Assembly (NCBI RefSeq): GCF_002261265.1
Contig: NZ_NEVK01000003.1
Span: forward strand, 186,001 to 250,000
Direction: 5' to 3'
Source: Bordetella genomosp. 7
GTDB lineage: Bacteria > Pseudomonadota > Gammaproteobacteria > Burkholderiales > Burkholderiaceae_B
DNA: 64,000 bases
In this document: in pieces, positions 41,870 to 49,956 of the stretch
Layout of the letters: each line of letters opens with the position of its first letter
How positions within the stretch are numbered: the first letter of the stretch is position 1
Made by a program: the position numbers and the translations under genes
The notes under the pieces: model-generated
What the model was told of the DNA's origin: nothing
Databases searched by the model: none
The model's input: the letters and a program-made list of their open reading frames with translations, nothing else

Positions 41870-43633
41870 TCAGGCCGTGGCCCATGAGTCGCGCAGCGTG
41901 ACGATGCGGTTGAGCACCGGCGCCTCGGGCGTCGAGTCTTTGCTGTCTACCGTGAAGTAGCCCAACCGCTCGAACTGCCATGTGGCGCCCGGCGCGATCC
42001 GGGTGCCCGGTTCCAGCCAGGCGTCGACGGTGCGGCGCGAGTCCGGGTTCAGGCAGGTCAGGAAATCCTTGTCGCCGGCGTCCGGATAGGGGTCGGAGAA
42101 CAGGCGATCGTACAGATGCACGCGCGCCGGCACCGCGTGAGCCGCGCTGACCCAGGTGATATTGCCCTTGACCTTGACGCTGTCCGAGCCTGGCGTGCCG
42201 CTCTTGGTATCGGGCAGGTATTCGGCCTGCACTTCGGTTACGCGGCCGGATTCGTCTTTGGTGAAGCCCGTGCAGCGCACCACGTAGCCGTATTTCAGGC
42301 GCACGGTGTTGCCGGGGTACAGGCGGAAATACTTCTTGGGCGGCTCTTCGCGGAAATCGTCGCGCTCGATCCAGAGCTCGCGCGAGAACGGGAACTCGCG
42401 CGCCCCGGCGGCCGGATCATGCGGGTTGCGCGGGGCGGTGCAGGCTTCGTGCTGGCCTTCGGGGTAATTGGTGATGACCAGTTTGAGCGGGTCGAGCACC
42501 GCCACGGAGCGCGCCGCGGTGGGGTCCAGGTCGTCGCGCACGGCCTGCTCGAGCAGGCCGTAGTCGATGCGCGAATCGGACTTGGACACGGCCGTGCGGT
42601 CGCAGAACAGGCGGATGGACGACGGTGTGTAGCCGCGCCGGCGCAGACCGAACAGGGTGGGCATGCGCGGGTCGTCCCAGCCATCGACGTAGCCTTCGCG
42701 CACCAGTTGCAGCAGCTTGCGCTTGCTGGTGACGACGTACGTCAGGTTCAGGCGGGCGAATTCGTACTGGCGCGGCAGCGGCCGGGCCAGTTTGCCCAGT
42801 TCGGCCAGGCGCGCCAGGATCCAGTCATAGAAGGGGCGCTGATCTTCGAACTCGAGCGTGCAGATGCTGTGCGTGATGCCTTCCAGCGCGTCTTCGACCG
42901 GATGCGCCCAGCTGTACATGGGGTAGATGCACCAGGTGTTGCCGGTGCGGTGGTGCGTGGCGTGGCGCACGCGGTACATCACGGGGTCGCGCAGGTTGAT
43001 GTTGGGCGACGCCATGTCGATCTTGGCGCGCAGCACCAGGCTGCCGTCGGGATGCTTGCCGTCGCGCATTTCGGCCAGCAGCGCCAGCGATTCGTCGGCG
43101 GGGCGGTCGCGCCAGGGCGAAGGCACGCCCGGTTCCGTCAGGGTGCCGCGGTTGGCGCGGATCTGCTCGGGCGTCTGTTCGTCGACGTAGGCGTGGCCGG
43201 CCTGTACCAGGGCCTGGGCGAACTCGTACATGAAGCCGAAGTAATCGCTGGCGAAGTACAGGTGCTCGGTGCCGTTGGCGTTCCAGTCGAAGCCCAGCCA
43301 CCGCACCGCCTCGATGATGGCGTCGACGTATTCCTGGTCTTCTTTCTCGGGGTTCGTGTCGTCAAAGCGCAGGTGGCACACGCCGCCGTATTCGCGGGCC
43401 AGCCCGAAGTTCACGCAAATGCTCTTGGCGTGCCCGATGTGCAGATAGCCGTTGGGCTCGGGCGGGAACCGCGTGCGGATGCGGGCCGGGTCGGGCGCGC
43501 CCCGGGACTGGACCGAGGCCGGGCCAGGCTCGCCGGCCCAGCGCTTGCCCTGGAATCGGTCGGCCTGCAGATCGTCGTCGATGATGTTGCGCAGGAAATT
43601 GGTGGCGGCAGTCGGCGTGGGGGCGGTGGTCAT
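41870..43633 (-). CDS. glnS: glutaminyl-tRNA synthetase
   Basis: Class I synthetase charging tRNA-Gln. It has 587 residues. RTRFPPEPNGYLHIGHAKS contains the HIGH motif (65-68), and FCDRTAVSKSDSRIDY contains the KMSKS-like loop. LRFDDTNPEKEDQEYVDAI and ASDYFGFMYEFAQALVQAGH are GlnRS-type, and the anticodon-binding beta-barrels follow (YPGNTVRLKYGYVVRCTG). A short N-terminal extension precedes NFLRNIIDDDL. The start at 43633 (MTTAPTPT) is the most likely; no purine-rich Shine-Dalgarno is evident. Confidence 0.97.
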   Translation of the reverse strand: MTTAPTPTAATNFLRNIIDDDLQADRFQGKRWAGEPGPASVQSRGAPDPARIRTRFPPEPNGYLHIGHAKSICVNFGLAREYGGVCHLRFDDTNPEKEDQEYVDAIIEAVRWLGFDWNANGTEHLYFASDYFGFMYEFAQALVQAGHAYVDEQTPEQIRANRGTLTEPGVPSPWRDRPADESLALLAEMRDGKHPDGSLVLRAKIDMASPNINLRDPVMYRVRHATHHRTGNTWCIYPMYSWAHPVEDALEGITHSICTLEFEDQRPFYDWILARLAELGKLARPLPRQYEFARLNLTYVVTSKRKLLQLVREGYVDGWDDPRMPTLFGLRRRGYTPSSIRLFCDRTAVSKSDSRIDYGLLEQAVRDDLDPTAARSVAVLDPLKLVITNYPEGQHEACTAPRNPHDPAAGAREFPFSRELWIERDDFREEPPKKYFRLYPGNTVRLKYGYVVRCTGFTKDESGRVTEVQAEYLPDTKSGTPGSDSVKVKGNITWVSAAHAVPARVHLYDRLFSDPYPDAGDKDFLTCLNPDSRRTVDAWLEPGTRIAPGATWQFERLGYFTVDSKDSTPEAPVLNRIVTLRDSWATA

Positions 43634-43746
43634 GCTCGAGAAAGGAGAAAACAGCGGCAAAGCGTCAATTTTGCCACGTCCGCACTCCGAAACCGTTGTA
43701 AACCTGTCCCCATCTTCCGGAAACAGGCTCTACACTACCGGCCATC

Positions 43747-45090
43747 ATGGATATCGTCCCTTTATTGCTGGCCCGCATCCAGTTCACGGCAAGCCTGAGC
43801 TTCCTGGCGTTGTTCATGGCGCTTTCGCTGGCGCTGTCCTGGATGCTGCTGTTTTTCAAGCTGTGCGCGCACCGCACGGGACGGCCCGGGTGGACGGCCG
43901 CCTACCGGTTCTGGGTGCGCTTTTTTGCCCTGTCGTTCGTGCTGGCCCTGGCCGCCGCGCTGCCGGTGCTGATACAGCTGGGCAGCCTGTGGCCCGGCCT
44001 GATGGACAAAATCGGCAATGTGGCCGGGCCGCTCATCGGTTTCGGGGTGCTGTCGGTGTTCATCCTGAAATCGTGCTTCCTGGGGGTGATGCTGTTCGGG
44101 CAGCGCCGCGTATCCGCGGGCGCGCATACGCTGGCGGTGTTCATGGTGGCGCTGGGGCAGGCGGCAACCCTGTTCTGGGTGCTGGCGCTGCAATCGTGGG
44201 TGCAGACGCCCGCCGGCGCCACCCTCATCGATGCGCGCTACCAGGTCTATGACTGGCGGGCGGTCATCTTCAATCCGTCGTTCGGCTGGAACCTGGGCCT
44301 GATGGCATTGTGGTCCGCCCTGGCGGCGGCCTTCCTGATATTGGGCGTTACCGCGCTGCAGGCGTTGCGCCGCCGGCTCGACGAGGGGGAACGCTGTGCG
44401 TTCAAGGCGGCGCTGGTCGCGGCGGCGGCCGCCTCGCTGCTGCAGGGGCCGGTGCTCGACGGCGCGGGCCGCGTCATGGCCGAGCACCAGCCCGCCAAGG
44501 CCGCGGCCGCGGCGGGCTATTGGAAAAGCGGCGCCGAGCCGGCCTGGGCCCTGTTCGGCTGGCCCGACGCCAGGGCGCAGGCCACGCGCGCCGAGCTGGC
44601 GTTGCCCGGCGTGGGCGAGGCATGGCTGGGACGCGATGCGCAAGGCCTCTACCAGGGGCTGGACAAGTTTTCCGGTATGCAGCCGCCGGTGGCTGCCACG
44701 TTCTGGACGTTGCGTGCGGTGATGTTGCTGGGCCTGGCCATGCTGGCGGTGTCGCTGCTGACGCTGGCGTTCACCGCCCGCCGCGGGCTGGATCCGTCGC
44801 TGCTGCCGCGCTGGTGGCTGCGGATGGTTGTCGCCATGCTGTATGCCGGCGGACTTGCCGTGCTGGCCGGGGGCGTGTTTTCGGTGGCCGGCATGCAGCC
44901 GTATGCGGTCAACGCCACCATCACGCAAAGCGAAGTGCTGGGCACGGCCAGCGTGCCAGTGCTGGCGGCCAGCCTGGCGGGCTACCTGGCGCTGTATGCG
45001 GCGCTGCTGGCGGCCTTCAATGGCATGTTGTTCCATGCCGCGCGCTACGGCGTGGTGCCGGTGCGCAAACCCGGAGGCCTGTCCCCATGA
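43747..45090 (+). CDS. cytochrome bd oxidase subunit I-like protein lacking the usual haem ligands
   Basis: A 447-residue membrane protein that aligns with CydA over most of its length: RIQFTASLSFLALF at the start, FWVRFFALSFVLALA, VFILKSCFLGVMLFG, AGAHTLAVFMVALGQ, and a short Q-loop region with MAEHQPAKAAAAAGYWKS. However, the E. coli ligands and proton-path residues are replaced. His19 is Leu20, His186 is Leu (NLGLMALWS), and Met393 is Val in LRAVMLLG. Glu99 and Glu107 become Gly or Phe and Lys (LIGFGVLSVFILKS), and Glu445 and GRQPW become Val and GMQPY. It is coupled (ATGA) to a CydB-like gene. It is therefore a divergent bd-family protein that probably does not hold three haems in the standard way; function unknown. 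Confidence 0.8.
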   Translation: MDIVPLLLARIQFTASLSFLALFMALSLALSWMLLFFKLCAHRTGRPGWTAAYRFWVRFFALSFVLALAAALPVLIQLGSLWPGLMDKIGNVAGPLIGFGVLSVFILKSCFLGVMLFGQRRVSAGAHTLAVFMVALGQAATLFWVLALQSWVQTPAGATLIDARYQVYDWRAVIFNPSFGWNLGLMALWSALAAAFLILGVTALQALRRRLDEGERCAFKAALVAAAAASLLQGPVLDGAGRVMAEHQPAKAAAAAGYWKSGAEPAWALFGWPDARAQATRAELALPGVGEAWLGRDAQGLYQGLDKFSGMQPPVAATFWTLRAVMLLGLAMLAVSLLTLAFTARRGLDPSLLPRWWLRMVVAMLYAGGLAVLAGGVFSVAGMQPYAVNATITQSEVLGTASVPVLAASLAGYLALYAALLAAFNGMLFHAARYGVVPVRKPGGLSP

Positions 45091-46118
45091 TCGACATGCT
45101 GGCCGCTTCGCTGGGGGTGAATTCCAGCGATCCGACCTTCTGGATGCCGCTGGTGTTCATGGGGTTGTTGTTCCTGTTGATCGCGGGCGGCGTCGTCCTG
45201 GACGGCTTCGACCTGGGCGTGGGCATGTTGCTGCCGCTGGCGCCGGCCGAAGAGCGCGGCCGCATGATGAGCCTGCTCAGCCCGTGGCGCGATGCCAATG
45301 AATTCTGGCCTTTGCTGGGCATAGGCCTGTTTGCGTCGGCATTTCCCATGGCGTGGGGCGCCGTATTCGGCAAGCTGTACGGGCCCCTGGCCCTGATGGC
45401 GCTCGGACTGGCGCTGCGCAGTGTCTCTTTCGAGTTCCGCATCCGCGCGCGCAGCGAGCTCAAGCCGCGCTGGGTGCTGGGGTTCTGGCTGGGCTCGGTG
45501 GCCACGGCGTTTGCGCAAGGGCTTATCCTGGGGCGTTTTGCCACGGGGTACCAGACCGCCGCGGGGTACGGGTGGTTTGCCGTCCTGATGGGCTTTTGCG
45601 CCGTGGCCGCGTACGCGCTGCTGGGGGCGGCGTGGCTGGTCATGCGCGTCGACGGCGAGCTGCAGCGCCGCGCCGCGCGCTGGGGCCGGGCGGCCATCCG
45701 CTGGACCGCCGTGGGCATGGTCGCCACGTCGGCGATGCTGGGGCTGGCCAATGCCGGCATTTTCTATAAATGGAGCAACCCTTCCGGGCTGGTAGTGGCG
45801 GCGGTGGTATGGGGGCTGATGCTGCTGTGCTTTTCCAACGTGGAAATGCGCCTGTCGCGCATACCGGGTCGGGCCGAGCAGCACAGCTGGCTGCCGTTTG
45901 TGCTGTGCGTGGTGCTGTACTGGCTGATGCTCGCGGGCCTGGCCTACAGCCTGTTTCCCTACTTGATCCTCGACGACATGACGCTCTGGGACGGCACGGC
46001 CTCGATCGGATCGATGCGCCTGGTGCTGGCCGGGGCCGTGATCGGCGCGCCGGTGGTCGTGGTGTTCAACCTGCTGGCCTACCGGTCGGTATTCGGCAAA
46101 GAGCGCCGCGCGGGCTGA
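45087..46118 (+). CDS. cytochrome bd oxidase subunit II-like protein
   Basis: A 343-residue CydB/CioB-family membrane protein with about eight to nine helices. Conserved CydB segments are readable: GVVLDGFDLGVGMLLPLAP, SPWRDANEFWPLLGIGLFAS, GKLYGPLALMALGLALRSV, SFEFRIRARSELK, FAQGLILGRF and YSLFPYLILDDMTLWDGTAS. Unlike its partner it looks ordinary. The ATG overlaps the subunit I-like stop, with GGAGG at 45072-45076, so the two are translated together and most likely form a heterodimer in the inner membrane. Because subunit I lacks normal haem ligands, oxidase activity should not be assumed. Confidence 0.87.
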   Translation: MIDMLAASLGVNSSDPTFWMPLVFMGLLFLLIAGGVVLDGFDLGVGMLLPLAPAEERGRMMSLLSPWRDANEFWPLLGIGLFASAFPMAWGAVFGKLYGPLALMALGLALRSVSFEFRIRARSELKPRWVLGFWLGSVATAFAQGLILGRFATGYQTAAGYGWFAVLMGFCAVAAYALLGAAWLVMRVDGELQRRAARWGRAAIRWTAVGMVATSAMLGLANAGIFYKWSNPSGLVVAAVVWGLMLLCFSNVEMRLSRIPGRAEQHSWLPFVLCVVLYWLMLAGLAYSLFPYLILDDMTLWDGTASIGSMRLVLAGAVIGAPVVVVFNLLAYRSVFGKERRAG

Positions 46119-46160: not shown

Positions 46161-47630
46161 TCAAGACGCCGCGTCTTCGGCCCGGTCGGCGGCCAGGGGC
46201 AGGGTGATGCGCACCAGCAGCCCGCCTTCGCGGGCCTGGTCGAGTTTCAGCGCGCCGCCGTGCGCGCGCGCGATGGCTTCGGCCAGCGCCAGCCCCAGCC
46301 CGACATTGCCGGTGCGCGTGCGGGCGTCGTCCAGCCTGGCGAACGGCCGCAGCGCTTCGGCGCGGCGTTCGGGAGCGATGCCCGGGCCGTGATCGGCCAC
46401 TTCCAGCACGGCGTGCGCGCCCGCGCGCCGCAGGCGGATATCCACGGGCGGCTTGCCGTGATGCAGCGCGTTGCCGATCAGGTTGTCCAGCAGCCGGCCC
46501 AGGGCTACCGCATCGCCCTGCAGCACCATGTTGTCGTCCGACATATCCAGGGTGACCTCGGTGCCCGTGCTCTGCCAGCCCGCCACCCGGTCGGCCAGCC
46601 ATTCCGGAAACGCCATCTCGACATAGCGATAGCCGGCGGGATCGGTGCCGCGCACAAAACCGATGAACTGGTCGACCATGTGCTGCATGTCCTGCAGATC
46701 TTTGCGCAGGCCGTCTTTCAGGACCGGGTCGTCGGCCATTTCAATGCGCAGCCACATGCGCGACAAGGGCCCCTTCAGATCATGAGGCAGGCCCGACAGC
46801 AGCGTGCGCCGCACGGATTCGGATTCAGCCAGGGCATCCAGCATGGCGTTGAAGCGTTCGCCCAGCGCACGGGTTTCGCTCGGGCCGGACGGCTGCACGC
46901 GCTGGGGTTGCCCGGCGGCCAGGCGGTCGGCGGCTTCGGCCAGCCGCGTCAGCGGCCGTGTAATGTGCCAGGAAAACCCGCCGGCCAGCAGCAGCACCAG
47001 CCCCATGCCGCCCAGCCACGCGGCGATCATGGGCGTGGCCACCGGGGGATCGAGCCGTTCGAGCGGGATCACCAGCCATTCGCGCAGGCGAGGCGCTTCT
47101 TCGGTATCGGTGTTGCGCGCCAGCGAGATGAAAATCTCGGGATCCCGCCCGTGCGACAGCGCCACGCGCGTGCCATCGTTGAGGCGGTCATTGAGCTTGC
47201 GGATCAGCGAACGCAGGTCGTCCCGGATATCGTCGGTCTGCGCGTCATGGTGCGAACGGTGCCGAATCCGGTCGACATCCCGGTGCGGCGTGCCGCTGGC
47301 GTCCTGCCGCGCCCCGGGCGACGGCGTGCGCGAAAACCGTTGCAGGCGCGCCTCGGCCGGCAGGGTGCGCGACCACAGCCGCCATTGGTTCTGCGAGGCG
47401 TTGCGCACGAATTCGGCGCGGTCGTCCGCAGGGATTTCCGACACCGCCGCGCGCAGGGTGCGTATGGTGGTGGCGATATAGCCTATCGCCACGTCTTCCA
47501 GGAACTTCTGGCGGTAATACGACACGGTCGCCAGCGTGGCGGCCTGCGCCAGCAGCACCGCGCCCAATACAAGCAGGATCAGGCGCGTCCGCAGCGAGCG
47601 CGGCAACAGGGAACTGAGCAGGCGGTTCAT
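46161..47630 (-). CDS. sensor histidine kinase (EnvZ-like)
   Basis: Inner-membrane sensor of 489 residues. The first helix is at about 13-35 (LILLVLGAVLLAQAATLATV), then a periplasmic domain of about 190 residues, and a second helix near 225-245 (MIAAWLGGMGLVLLLAGGF). A HAMP region follows (RPLTRLAEAADRLAAGQ). His283 in SGLPHDLKGPLSRM is the phospho-accepting residue, LLDNLIGNALHHGK the N box, VADHGPGIAPERR and GNVGLGLALAEAIARAHGG the G boxes. It begins 19 bases after the response regulator stop. The start MNRLLSS is chosen because the upstream extension lacks similarity. Signal unknown. Confidence 0.92.
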   Translation of the reverse strand: MNRLLSSLLPRSLRTRLILLVLGAVLLAQAATLATVSYYRQKFLEDVAIGYIATTIRTLRAAVSEIPADDRAEFVRNASQNQWRLWSRTLPAEARLQRFSRTPSPGARQDASGTPHRDVDRIRHRSHHDAQTDDIRDDLRSLIRKLNDRLNDGTRVALSHGRDPEIFISLARNTDTEEAPRLREWLVIPLERLDPPVATPMIAAWLGGMGLVLLLAGGFSWHITRPLTRLAEAADRLAAGQPQRVQPSGPSETRALGERFNAMLDALAESESVRRTLLSGLPHDLKGPLSRMWLRIEMADDPVLKDGLRKDLQDMQHMVDQFIGFVRGTDPAGYRYVEMAFPEWLADRVAGWQSTGTEVTLDMSDDNMVLQGDAVALGRLLDNLIGNALHHGKPPVDIRLRRAGAHAVLEVADHGPGIAPERRAEALRPFARLDDARTRTGNVGLGLALAEAIARAHGGALKLDQAREGGLLVRITLPLAADRAEDAAS

Positions 47631-47649
47631 GCAAGGTGGCGGCGGGCAA

Positions 47650-48360
47650 TCAAGGCGAGAACCGGTAGCCGATGCCCCATACCGTCTGTATCCAGCGCGG
47701 CTGTTTCGGGTCGTCTTCGATGGCGCGTCGCAGGCGCAGGATGGCGATGTCGATGGCGCGGTCGTTGCGTTCACCGCCGTCGTCGTCGCGCGCCAGCGCC
47801 AGCAGGCGTTCGCGCGACAGCGGCTTGCCGGCGTTGCGTACCAGGGCTTCCAGCAGGTTGATTTCGCCGCCGGTCAGCTTGACCGGCTCGCCGTCGCGCA
47901 ACAGCTGCCTCAGGGCCGGGTCGAATACAAAGGGCCCGAAGCTGACCGGCACGTCCTTGGTCAGTGCCGAAGGGCCGCGCTTGCGCCGCAATACCGCTTC
48001 GATGCGCGCCAGCAATTCGCGGGGATCGAACGGCTTGCCCAGATAGTCGTCGGCGCCGGCCTCCAGGCCTATGATGCGGTCCACCGCCTCGTCGCGCGCC
48101 GTCAGCAGGATGACGGGGATATCTTCGCCCTGTTCGCGCAGCCGGCGGCAGGCATCGGCGCCGTCGCCACCGGGCAGCATGCGGTCGAGCACCAGCAGGT
48201 CGGGGGTGTAGCGGGCGATGCGCGCGGTCAGGTCGCTGGCGTCGGGGGCCAGCAGCGTGTCGTAGCCATGCCGGTTGAGATAGTCGGCCAGCAGCTGGCG
48301 CAGGGCGGGGTCGTCGTCGACGACCAGCAGCTTGGTATGCGGATTGTCCATGGACGCCAT
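47650..48360 (-). CDS. OmpR-family response regulator
   Basis: Transcription factor of 236 residues, partner of the adjacent kinase. The receiver domain has the acidic pocket in KLLVVDDDPALRQLLADYL, phospho-acceptor Asp59 in DLLVLDRMLPGGDGAD, and LLTARDE and GKPFDPRELLARI. The C-terminal winged helix shows LTGGEINLLEALVRNAGKPL, RAIDIAILRLRRAIED and IQTVWGIGYRF. ATG 48360 or ATG 48351 could be the start; neither has a strong ribosome-binding site. The divergent neighbour encodes an outer-membrane barrel and is a natural candidate target. Confidence 0.93.
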   Translation of the reverse strand: MASMDNPHTKLLVVDDDPALRQLLADYLNRHGYDTLLAPDASDLTARIARYTPDLLVLDRMLPGGDGADACRRLREQGEDIPVILLTARDEAVDRIIGLEAGADDYLGKPFDPRELLARIEAVLRRKRGPSALTKDVPVSFGPFVFDPALRQLLRDGEPVKLTGGEINLLEALVRNAGKPLSRERLLALARDDDGGERNDRAIDIAILRLRRAIEDDPKQPRWIQTVWGIGYRFSP

Positions 48361-48507
48361 AGTGTCCGGGGATGGGAGCGCCGGCAAGGGGCGGGAAATA
48401 GATTGAAATATAACGCGGCCTGGGCCGCGCCAGCCGGGGCAACCTAAAATAGCGACTTCGCCTTACGCGTTTGCGCGGTCGTTTTCTTTCGCCCAGAAGT
48501 TTTCCTG

Positions 48508-49956
48508 ATGCGCCGTTCTCGGGTCCGTACACTGTCGAGCGTCATGGCCATGTATCGTGGCTGGCGCGGGGCGGCCGTGCGTCCCATGCTGGCCGGCCTG
48601 TCGGCCTGCAGCCTGGCTCTGGGCGCCTGCGCCGCGCCCGATTCCCTGCCGTCTGCCCCCTTCGCCGTGACGTCACCGCACGACCCGGCCCCGCGGGGCC
48701 AGGCGCCGCGCCCGGATGCCGGGCAGCCGGCGCGCGACGATACCGAGCGGGCTGCGCGATTCGGCATCGCGGTGCTGGCGCCCGCCATGCCGTTGCCGGT
48801 GGCGCCCGCCACGCTGGCCGAATCGCGGCCCCTCGAGCTGGACCCGATGCCCTGCCAGCTGTCTCCGCTCGAGGGCCTGGTCGACGCCTCGCTGCAGCAG
48901 CGGGACGCCCACCCCGATGCCGCCAGAGCGGCGGGCCCGGACGGCACCGGCACGGTCGACATGTCCGCCGCCGCCCAGGCGGCCCCGCTGCCGGTGGAAT
49001 GCGCGAACCTGTTCCCCGATGTGCCGCCCGTGCCCCCGCAGCAATACGACTTTGGCCTGGAAACGCGCGACCCGGTGCCGTCGGGCTCCGTGATGGTGGT
49101 CACCGGCGTGGCCCAACCCGCCAGCCCCTGGTTTTCCACTCTGAGCAGCCAGCAGGGGTTTGCCTTTTCGGGCGGGCGCTGGGTGTATCGCGACACCGCG
49201 GGGCCCAGCCTGGCCGTGGGCCACCTGACGGCCAACGCGCCGCTGTGGGGCAGTGCGGTGCCCATCGGCGGCCTGCAGATTGCGGACTGGGCGGGCGGGG
49301 CGCAGGTGGTGCCGCCCGGCAAGGTCGCCTATTCGTCTACCGTCGGCCGGCTCAACTACACCAACCTGGCCGCGCAGTCGGGCGCTATCGATTACGGGGT
49401 CACCGCGGGCAGCGGAACGCTGCGCTATGGCCTGACTCCCGCGCTGACGCTCGAAAGCCAGATGCAGACCGCGCCCGATCTGGCCACCCGCGGGCTGGGC
49501 ACGACCTATTCGGCCGGGGATCTGGGCACCTTTCAGGTCGGCGTGACGCAAAGCACGTTCGACAATGTCAACGCGTGGCGCTACCGCTTCGGCTACAACG
49601 TCAATCTGCTCGAATCGGTGAGCCTGGCGGTCACCAATGAGCAGGTCGACGCCGGTTTCGGCGACCTGTCCCAATACCGCGACGGGTCGTTCACCTCGCC
49701 CCGCATGCGCAATACGTTTGCCGCCGGCGTGCCCATCTCGGGCTGGGGCACGCTGACGGGCACCTATACCGGGCTGCGCGAATCCGGCGTGGCCATCGAA
49801 CAACGCTTCGGGCTGCAGCACAGCATGCTGGTGGCGCCCAGCGTGCGCCTCGCCGTGGGCGCCGATCGCGATGTGGTCACGGGCGATTACGAAATGCGCG
49901 CGGGGCTTACCATGCCGGTCGATGCGTTCATGCGCGGCCTGTGGCTGTCGTGGTAG
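48508..49956 (+). CDS. outer-membrane beta-barrel protein, fimbrial-usher-like
   Basis: A 482-residue exported protein. The N-terminus is basic and hydrophobic (MLAGLSACSLALGACAAP) with a near-lipobox at LGAC, followed by a low-complexity Pro/Ala region with several Cys to about residue 170. The rest reads as alternating beta strands rich in Gly, Tyr and Thr: GTLRYGLTPALTLESQM, LGTTYSAGDLGTFQVGVT, WRYRFGYNVNLLESVSLA and GTLTGTYTGLRE. These resemble the barrel of chaperone-usher ushers, though the protein is much shorter than a full usher. It ends in aromatic Trp, as outer-membrane proteins do. TAAAAT at 48445-48450 may be its -10 box. It is divergent from the two-component genes. Function uncertain. 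Confidence 0.6.
   Translation: MRRSRVRTLSSVMAMYRGWRGAAVRPMLAGLSACSLALGACAAPDSLPSAPFAVTSPHDPAPRGQAPRPDAGQPARDDTERAARFGIAVLAPAMPLPVAPATLAESRPLELDPMPCQLSPLEGLVDASLQQRDAHPDAARAAGPDGTGTVDMSAAAQAAPLPVECANLFPDVPPVPPQQYDFGLETRDPVPSGSVMVVTGVAQPASPWFSTLSSQQGFAFSGGRWVYRDTAGPSLAVGHLTANAPLWGSAVPIGGLQIADWAGGAQVVPPGKVAYSSTVGRLNYTNLAAQSGAIDYGVTAGSGTLRYGLTPALTLESQMQTAPDLATRGLGTTYSAGDLGTFQVGVTQSTFDNVNAWRYRFGYNVNLLESVSLAVTNEQVDAGFGDLSQYRDGSFTSPRMRNTFAAGVPISGWGTLTGTYTGLRESGVAIEQRFGLQHSMLVAPSVRLAVGADRDVVTGDYEMRAGLTMPVDAFMRGLWLSW

Follow-up and report, generated by a model that had tools for sequence, protein, structure and literature searches.

Among the described systems, the closest to the locus studied here is CioAB (CIO), the bd oxidase with a short Q-loop. 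A divergent CydA paralogue in a two-subunit complex is also known from archaea: in the CydAA' of Murali et al. 2021, CydA' reportedly has CydA as its partner, no CydB is present, and the complex is said to reduce oxygen. Assembly of bd oxidases requires CydDC.

The residue types of the bd haem ligands have been stated (PMC8951039). In the E. coli enzyme, Glu107 of CydA is the proposed terminal proton donor, 7.8 Å from the haem d iron, and the proposed proton path comprises Lys53A, Lys57A, Asp105B, Asp58B, Glu107A and Glu74A (PMC13189123). CydB is a haem-less relative of the CydA fold, and in E. coli bd a quinone occupies in CydB the position where CydA has haems (PMC8951039).

In Bordetella, the locus cydAB3 (BB4012-BB4011; BP3225-BP3224) has been described as a predicted high-affinity bd oxidase, in passages that make no mention of ligand loss. 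A homopolymer table lists BP3224 against BB4011 (PMC1891110), BP3223 is RisK (PMC5020355), and BP3224-3225 is the next bd-like operon (PMC12914433). In B. bronchiseptica, a cydAB3 deletion of 2373 bp, which began 41 nt ahead of cydA3 and reached nucleotide 994 of cydB3, was by itself neutral for growth, and the transcript level of cyd3 matched that of an unexpressed gene; 18323 and six others out of 14 B. pertussis strains had a broken cydB3 (PMC11257404). A strain with cyd3 only was unobtainable (PMC11257404), which is weak evidence because four further strains with a single locus each (cco, cio, ctaD2, cyo2) failed likewise and cyd3 transcripts are low. We found no earlier description of a ligand-less CydA in the open-licence literature, a scope outside which the superfamily paper of Murali et al. 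2021 falls.

Results

A CydA-like protein with replaced haem-ligand positions

The window analysed here is a stretch of 64,000 nucleotides of Bordetella genomosp. 7 (contig NZ_NEVK01000003.1 of assembly GCF_002261265.1, positions 186,001 to 250,000). Its forward strand encodes a CydA-like protein of 447 aa (43747..45090; ATG start, no stop inside) followed by a CydB-like partner of 343 aa (45087..46118, +), whose start overlaps the CydA-like stop by 4 bp. The first protein matches PF01654 with 338 bits over the whole profile and the second PF02322 with 205 bits (Pfam), which places both in the cytochrome bd families by sequence. With 447 aa compared with 522 aa for E. coli CydA, the CydA-like protein has no long Q-loop insert. 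The CydA fold is predicted to be retained, as judged from a single-chain AlphaFold model (pLDDT 89.7). The first-pass annotation, made from the sequence alone, had described an intact frame, a preserved overall topology and a coupled CydB-like gene, and these features were all recovered.

It had also proposed that the standard haem ligands were lost. Alignment with MAFFT to E. coli CydA taken from NC_000913.3 confirmed this for the window gene, where six positions that serve as haem ligand or proton donor carry another residue (H19L, E99G, E107K, H186L, M393V and E445V). The codons concerned, all on the forward strand, are those of Leu20 at the haem ligand His19 (43804..43806), Gly100 at Glu99 (44044..44046), Lys108 at Glu107 (44068..44070), Leu185 at the haem b558 ligand His186 (44299..44301), Val325 at the haem b558 ligand Met393 (44719..44721) and Val380 at the haem ligand Glu445 (44884..44886); the assignment of each numbered residue to a given haem is one that we take to hold. 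In phmmer alignments to 7ose, 6rko and 9r2g, the same window residues fall at H19, E99 and E107. The haem-ligand set of functional bd oxidases, His19/His186/Met393/Glu445 plus Glu99, thus reads L, L, V, V and G, and the proton donor at the end of the H-channel is a Lys. The quinol-site set Lys252/Glu257/Arg391 is incomplete as well, with Lys and Arg retained and Glu257 replaced by Ala. Further replacements affect W441, R448, S140 and F390 (F390L), and the altered pocket residues include I144 besides W441, R448 and S140; apart from K252 and R391, R9, W260 and H126 are retained. Across 80 aligned canonical sequences, 48 positions are invariant. The window gene alters 17 of them, including all six named positions (hypergeometric P 0.001, only a rough guide because the sequences are related).

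The replacements define a clade in Alcaligenaceae

A protein search and a profile search of the same 200 family (Alcaligenaceae) genomes set apart a high-scoring group, present in 122 of them, the window's own included, and in 32 of 43 genus codes. Of these genomes, 112 were assigned by a score above 470 bits, with the canonical rows of two genomes (G156 and G000, the window's own) falling just under this threshold, and 10 lower-scoring ones by reading the residues; residues were checked in 104 of the 122, the other 18 being assigned by score alone. We aligned 131 distinct clade sequences from family genomes and further records, leaving out 43 duplicate CydA rows; one row (L237) stems from a gene truncated by the end of its contig and has gaps at several positions.

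Position 107 is Lys in 128 and Arg in 3 of the 131 sequences, so that Lys/Arg is a signature of the clade. Glu at 99 and His at 186 occur in none. His19 is retained in 10 and Met393 in 11, and position 445 is Glu or Asp in 11; 119 sequences lack both His19 and an acidic residue at 445. R391 (130/131) and W260 (127/131) are conserved, position 252 is Lys in 97 and Arg in 23, and Asp239 remains in just 17. The retention of His19 and Glu445 in some lineages and the Lys/Arg signature at Glu107 had both escaped the first-pass annotation. Five members (L042, L074, L208, L209 and L234) keep His19 and Glu445, yet not E99, E107 or H186; these are possible haem-binding intermediates without haem b558.

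That the ligands might simply sit at shifted positions in a proper alignment had been named as one finding that would speak against ligand loss. We therefore looked for conserved His, Met, Cys, Glu, Asp and Lys in the 131 members. Leaving the start Met aside, K108, C110, M115, H127, D306, E396 and H430 are conserved in at least 85% of them; H127 and M115 are conserved in canonical CydA too, and the position of H430 is variable there (Y/H/L). None substitutes for the lost ligands and, among the 131 members, no new conserved His or Met was found at the old ligand sites. A new haem ligand set is thus without sequence support.

Beyond the family, we fetched 52 homologue loci (L102-L153) from an order sample of 300 genomes and a class sample of 274 genomes. 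All retain six of six positions, and no ligand-less member from outside Alcaligenaceae was found among them. The best matches beyond the family in these samples reached 425 bits, a score seen in the order sample, and stayed below the 452 bits of the canonical gene of the window's own genome. Matches in plasmid records numbered 652, every one with less than 60% identity. Four clade members (L206-L209) come from metagenome-assembled genomes (MAGs) titled just beta- or gammaproteobacterium. Another member, which keeps His19, lies on a MAG contig titled Bordetella parapertussis (L204); since it is just 48% identical to the window protein, this label is doubtful.

The clade is nested in CIO-type CydA

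A tree was built without the ligand columns from 42 of the 131 clade rows and 17 canonical rows. The 42 sampled members form one group (bootstrap/SH-aLRT 100/100) on a long stem of 0.68, nested in CIO-type CydA and sister to the canonical genes L003 and L085. This placement and the absent long Q-loop insert assign the pair to the CIO-type (short Q-loop) lineage. Of the four PF01654 genes in the window's genome, the three others (L001, L002 and L003) retain all six positions. The pair would thus have arisen in Alcaligenaceae from a short-Q-loop (CIO-type) bd oxidase, its sister being the ordinary gene of the CIO type that the window's own genome has kept.

The fewest changes that the tree needs are one each for E99, E107, H186 and E257, which therefore were altered on the way to the whole clade; the corresponding numbers are three for H19, three for E445 (Asp allowed), four for R448 and six for M393. 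On the branch to the clade, His186 (haem b558), Glu99, the quinol-site Glu257 and the proton donor Glu107 would have been lost, the last in favour of Lys or Arg, and His19 and Glu445 would have been lost additionally in most lineages. Both residues survive in some lineages, among them L042, L074, L208 and L234. The first split of the clade is three-way, and the branch with the lineages that keep H19/E445 has a support of 83/87; because of this split and this weak support, these lineages are not shown to be basal.

Both genes are under purifying selection

The test of selection that had been proposed at the outset was carried out on 20 pairs. Pairwise dN/dS was 0.07-0.25 for the CydA-like and 0.03-0.15 for the CydB-like gene, compared with 0.105 for one canonical CioA pair, and no listed clade row contains an internal stop. 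The CydB-like gene is adjacent in 112 of 112 clade rows checked, and the 4-bp overlap is common to 106 of 112 relatives. In the partner, DGxDxG, D39, D42, D69, E116, R111 and R118 are conserved in at least 111 of 113 rows. At Arg68-Asp69 (45288..45293, +), the canonical Trp57 has become Arg (112/113) and the proton-channel Asp58 is retained (111/113). The pair has, moreover, family-specific near-invariant residues that are new compared with canonical sequences. In one member (L013, genome G092), CydB is split between two frames near codon 91; since this member was counted among the 113 rows, some of the single exceptions in the CydB table are artefacts.

A promoter-like box precedes the CydA-like gene

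The sequence TACACTA, a promoter-like -10 box, ends 9 nt before the ATG (43731..43737, +). After leaving out 6 of 128 upstream sequences that were identical to others, TA[AC]ACTA was found ahead of the start codon in 108 of 122 unique clade upstreams compared with none of 77 canonical CydA genes, and the columns of the box, -16 to -10, align without gaps. The motif occurs once in the window compared with 0.03 expected, and a fuller pattern has one match in the whole genome. From its distance to the ATG, we infer that transcription starts within a few bases of the start codon, which would make the mRNA leaderless or nearly so. An FNR/ANR-type box was not found above shuffles in 110 upstreams of the CydA-like gene. 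A second conserved stretch, ATTTTGCCA(CGT), at 43668-43679 of the window, is present in 54 of 56 upstreams. As it does not lie at a constant distance from the CydA-like start, it may be an element of glnS.

The locus is fixed and probably corresponds to cydAB3

Upstream of the pair lies glnS (41870-43660, -; Pfam tRNA-synt_1c), and a histidine kinase and an OmpR-type regulator (46161-47774 and 47650-48387, both -) are convergent to it. We examined 61 neighbourhood segments, four of which are canonical controls located elsewhere in their genomes. glnS adjoins the pair in 56 of 57 clade segments, and the single exception is a contig end. With the four controls included, the kinase cluster was present in 45 and the regulator cluster in 42 of the 61 segments; the kinase cluster is absent beside the pair in at least 11 clade segments (L046, L048, L052, L066, L071, L082, L083, L087, L088, L091 and L094). 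The kinase and the regulator of the window appear to be in synteny with RisK (BP3223) and BP3222 from B. pertussis, and the pair is often their convergent neighbour. Farther on, an ORF of 482 aa (48508-49956) has no Pfam match at E 0.001; it belongs to a cluster (12) found in 15 of the 61 segments. No conserved iron-sulphur partner was found among the neighbour clusters of the 61 segments.

The pair is probably Bordetella cydAB3. The locus numbers stand next to RisK/BP3222 as in the window, and the reported 2373-bp deletion (PMC11257404) fits the gene sizes and their overlap within a base or two; the identification is made from these features. The broken cydB of B. pertussis also has a counterpart in the clade, the split CydB of L013.

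Four genomes have the pair as sole CydA

In four genomes that are 97-99% complete (G006, G042, G128 and G193), the CydA-like gene of the pair is the sole PF01654 match. The gene of G193 (L234) is of the kind that keeps H19/E445, and those of the other three (L089, L066 and L064) are not. Neither CydD nor CydC was over its curated cut-off in these four genomes, whereas the window's own genome has both. CydD was over cut-off in G000, G053, G008 and G072, all with canonical CydA by score; CydC, for which the comparison genomes were G000 and G174 only, was over cut-off in the former and not in the latter. The cydD of the window's genome (L259, G000:C2:231392-233602) carries about 4.8 copies of a 111-bp tandem repeat inserted in frame; the repeat contains the palindrome GGTGTCAGACACC, and the open frame has 794 codons.

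Discussion

The pair belongs to the bd superfamily by descent and fold, and by the catalytic residues tested it is not a bd oxidase. It shares with CioAB the sequence family, the operon, the topology, the short Q-loop and a direct sister relationship in the tree, but differs by the absence of the haem ligands, E107, E257 and R448 in the window gene, by the change of CydB Trp57 to Arg and by its occurrence in genomes without CydD/CydC over cut-off. It resembles archaeal CydAA' in combining a divergent CydA paralogue with a second subunit, yet its partner, adjacent in every clade row checked, is CydB-like, so that it is not of the CydAA' type. NrfD-like quinone-binding subunits (PsrC, 2vpw_C; ActC/ActF of alternative complex III) differ by an identity of just 6-12%.

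We consider it likely, from the sequence evidence, that the pair is a neofunctionalised, haem-free, non-oxidase membrane complex with the fold of cytochrome bd, and we hold with still greater assurance that it is not an oxidase. Since axial ligands are missing and Glu257, Asp239 and Phe390 are mostly gone, it is very improbable that members like that of the window oxidise quinol or reduce oxygen. The first-pass annotation had left the changed function open between quinol binding, a different cofactor and a non-oxidase membrane complex. The last option appears to fit best; canonical quinol oxidation is unlikely (E257A, F390L, H186L, Asp239 in few members) and a new haem ligand set found no backing in the sequences.

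Part of the old proton path has been conserved. Its outer positions are Arg in 130 of 131 and Arg in 131 of 131 clade rows on the CydA side, and Glu in 113 of 113 and Asp in 111 of 113 on the CydB side. The position of Glu74 is Leu in 120 of 131 clade rows, a change that is not telling because canonical relatives already have Ser in 72 of 80. The cytoplasmic mouth (Arg, Arg, CydB Glu116 and CydB Asp69) is thus fixed, but the inner end is now Lys108, probably paired with acidic residues of CydB; by analogy with the channel described in E. coli, a Lys108-Asp69 pair may form at the old channel end. The CydA-like subunit would itself have become CydB-like, a four-helix bundle in which side chains, lipid or a quinone take up the room of the haems. 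The haem-less CydB of E. coli, with its quinone in the haem position (PMC8951039), is a parallel, but in ordinary bd oxidases the CydA side has haem sites, whereas here it is without them. Such a subunit would act as a sensor or as a structural or regulatory module, not as an electron-transfer enzyme. That the complex is specifically a haem-free structural or sensing module is a tentative suggestion. Speculative, too, is a fuller version, a haem-free membrane device converted from a terminal oxidase, with the cytoplasmic half of the proton path retained and a new centre of Lys108 and CydB Asp/Glu, serving across Alcaligenaceae from a leaderless promoter as a quinone- or voltage-responsive sensor or as a proton/ion conduit.

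We considered the possibility that haem is still bound through other or remaining residues and that the pair remains an oxidoreductase. Lys can ligate haem iron in other proteins, the fold is predicted to be retained, and K252 and R391 persist. With W260 kept as well, quinol might still bind, and because H19/E445 are retained in some rows, including that of G193 with its sole CydA, haem could persist in some members. Yet the old sites have gained no conserved His or Met, the pocket residues W441, R448, S140 and I144 are altered in the window, and four genomes keep the pair with neither CydD nor CydC over cut-off; we regard this alternative as unlikely. The proposal that the pair is a decaying copy of a CIO-type oxidase, turning into a pseudogene, finds some backing in the split CydB of L013, in the broken cydB3 of 18323 and six further B. 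pertussis strains and in the low transcript level in B. bronchiseptica (PMC11257404), and decay can apply to individual lineages, for example B. pertussis. Taken as a general explanation, it is contradicted by dN/dS far under 1, by the absence of stops in the listed clade rows, by conservation, including new near-invariant residues and presence in 122 of 200 family genomes, and by the fixed promoter-like box, and we give it hardly any credence. The earlier reading of the gene as a retained paralogue with changed function, rather than decay, is supported by these data, as by the single clade, the fixed locus and the four sole-CydA genomes without CydD or CydC over cut-off.

A role as regulatory subunit or decoy, in partnership with genuine bd oxidases present in the cell, would be in keeping with the dimers formed by E. 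coli bd-I (PMC13189123), with the three canonical CydA genes in the window's genome and with the further CydA matches in most clade genomes. The four near-complete genomes without another CydA homologue rule out an obligate partner of a canonical bd oxidase and make a role of this kind very improbable. Nor do we think it at all likely that the pair is a sensor of quinone or membrane state that feeds the adjacent histidine kinase, syntenic with RisK of B. pertussis. The frequency of the kinase and regulator clusters beside it and the order of BP3223 (RisK; PMC5020355) and the bd-like operon BP3224-3225 (PMC12914433) speak for this, but the kinase is convergent to the pair, at least 11 clade segments lack it there, and adjacency may be mere synteny because the glnS-min block is conserved too.

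It counts against a haem-free non-oxidase complex, our preferred reading, that any benefit from the pair is conditional, since its deletion has no phenotype in B. bronchiseptica and cydB is broken in several B. pertussis strains (PMC11257404). In Bordetella, a widely kept pair has been treated as a bd-type terminal oxidase in annotations, in oxidase counts and in deletion work despite missing the residues that hold haem, and if it is a true non-oxidase, the oxidase inventories of these bacteria are one too long. The clade also offers a graded natural series from oxidase to pseudo-oxidase, in which the sister genes keep six positions, some lineages H19/E445 only and others none; this allows testing what the bd scaffold can do without haem.
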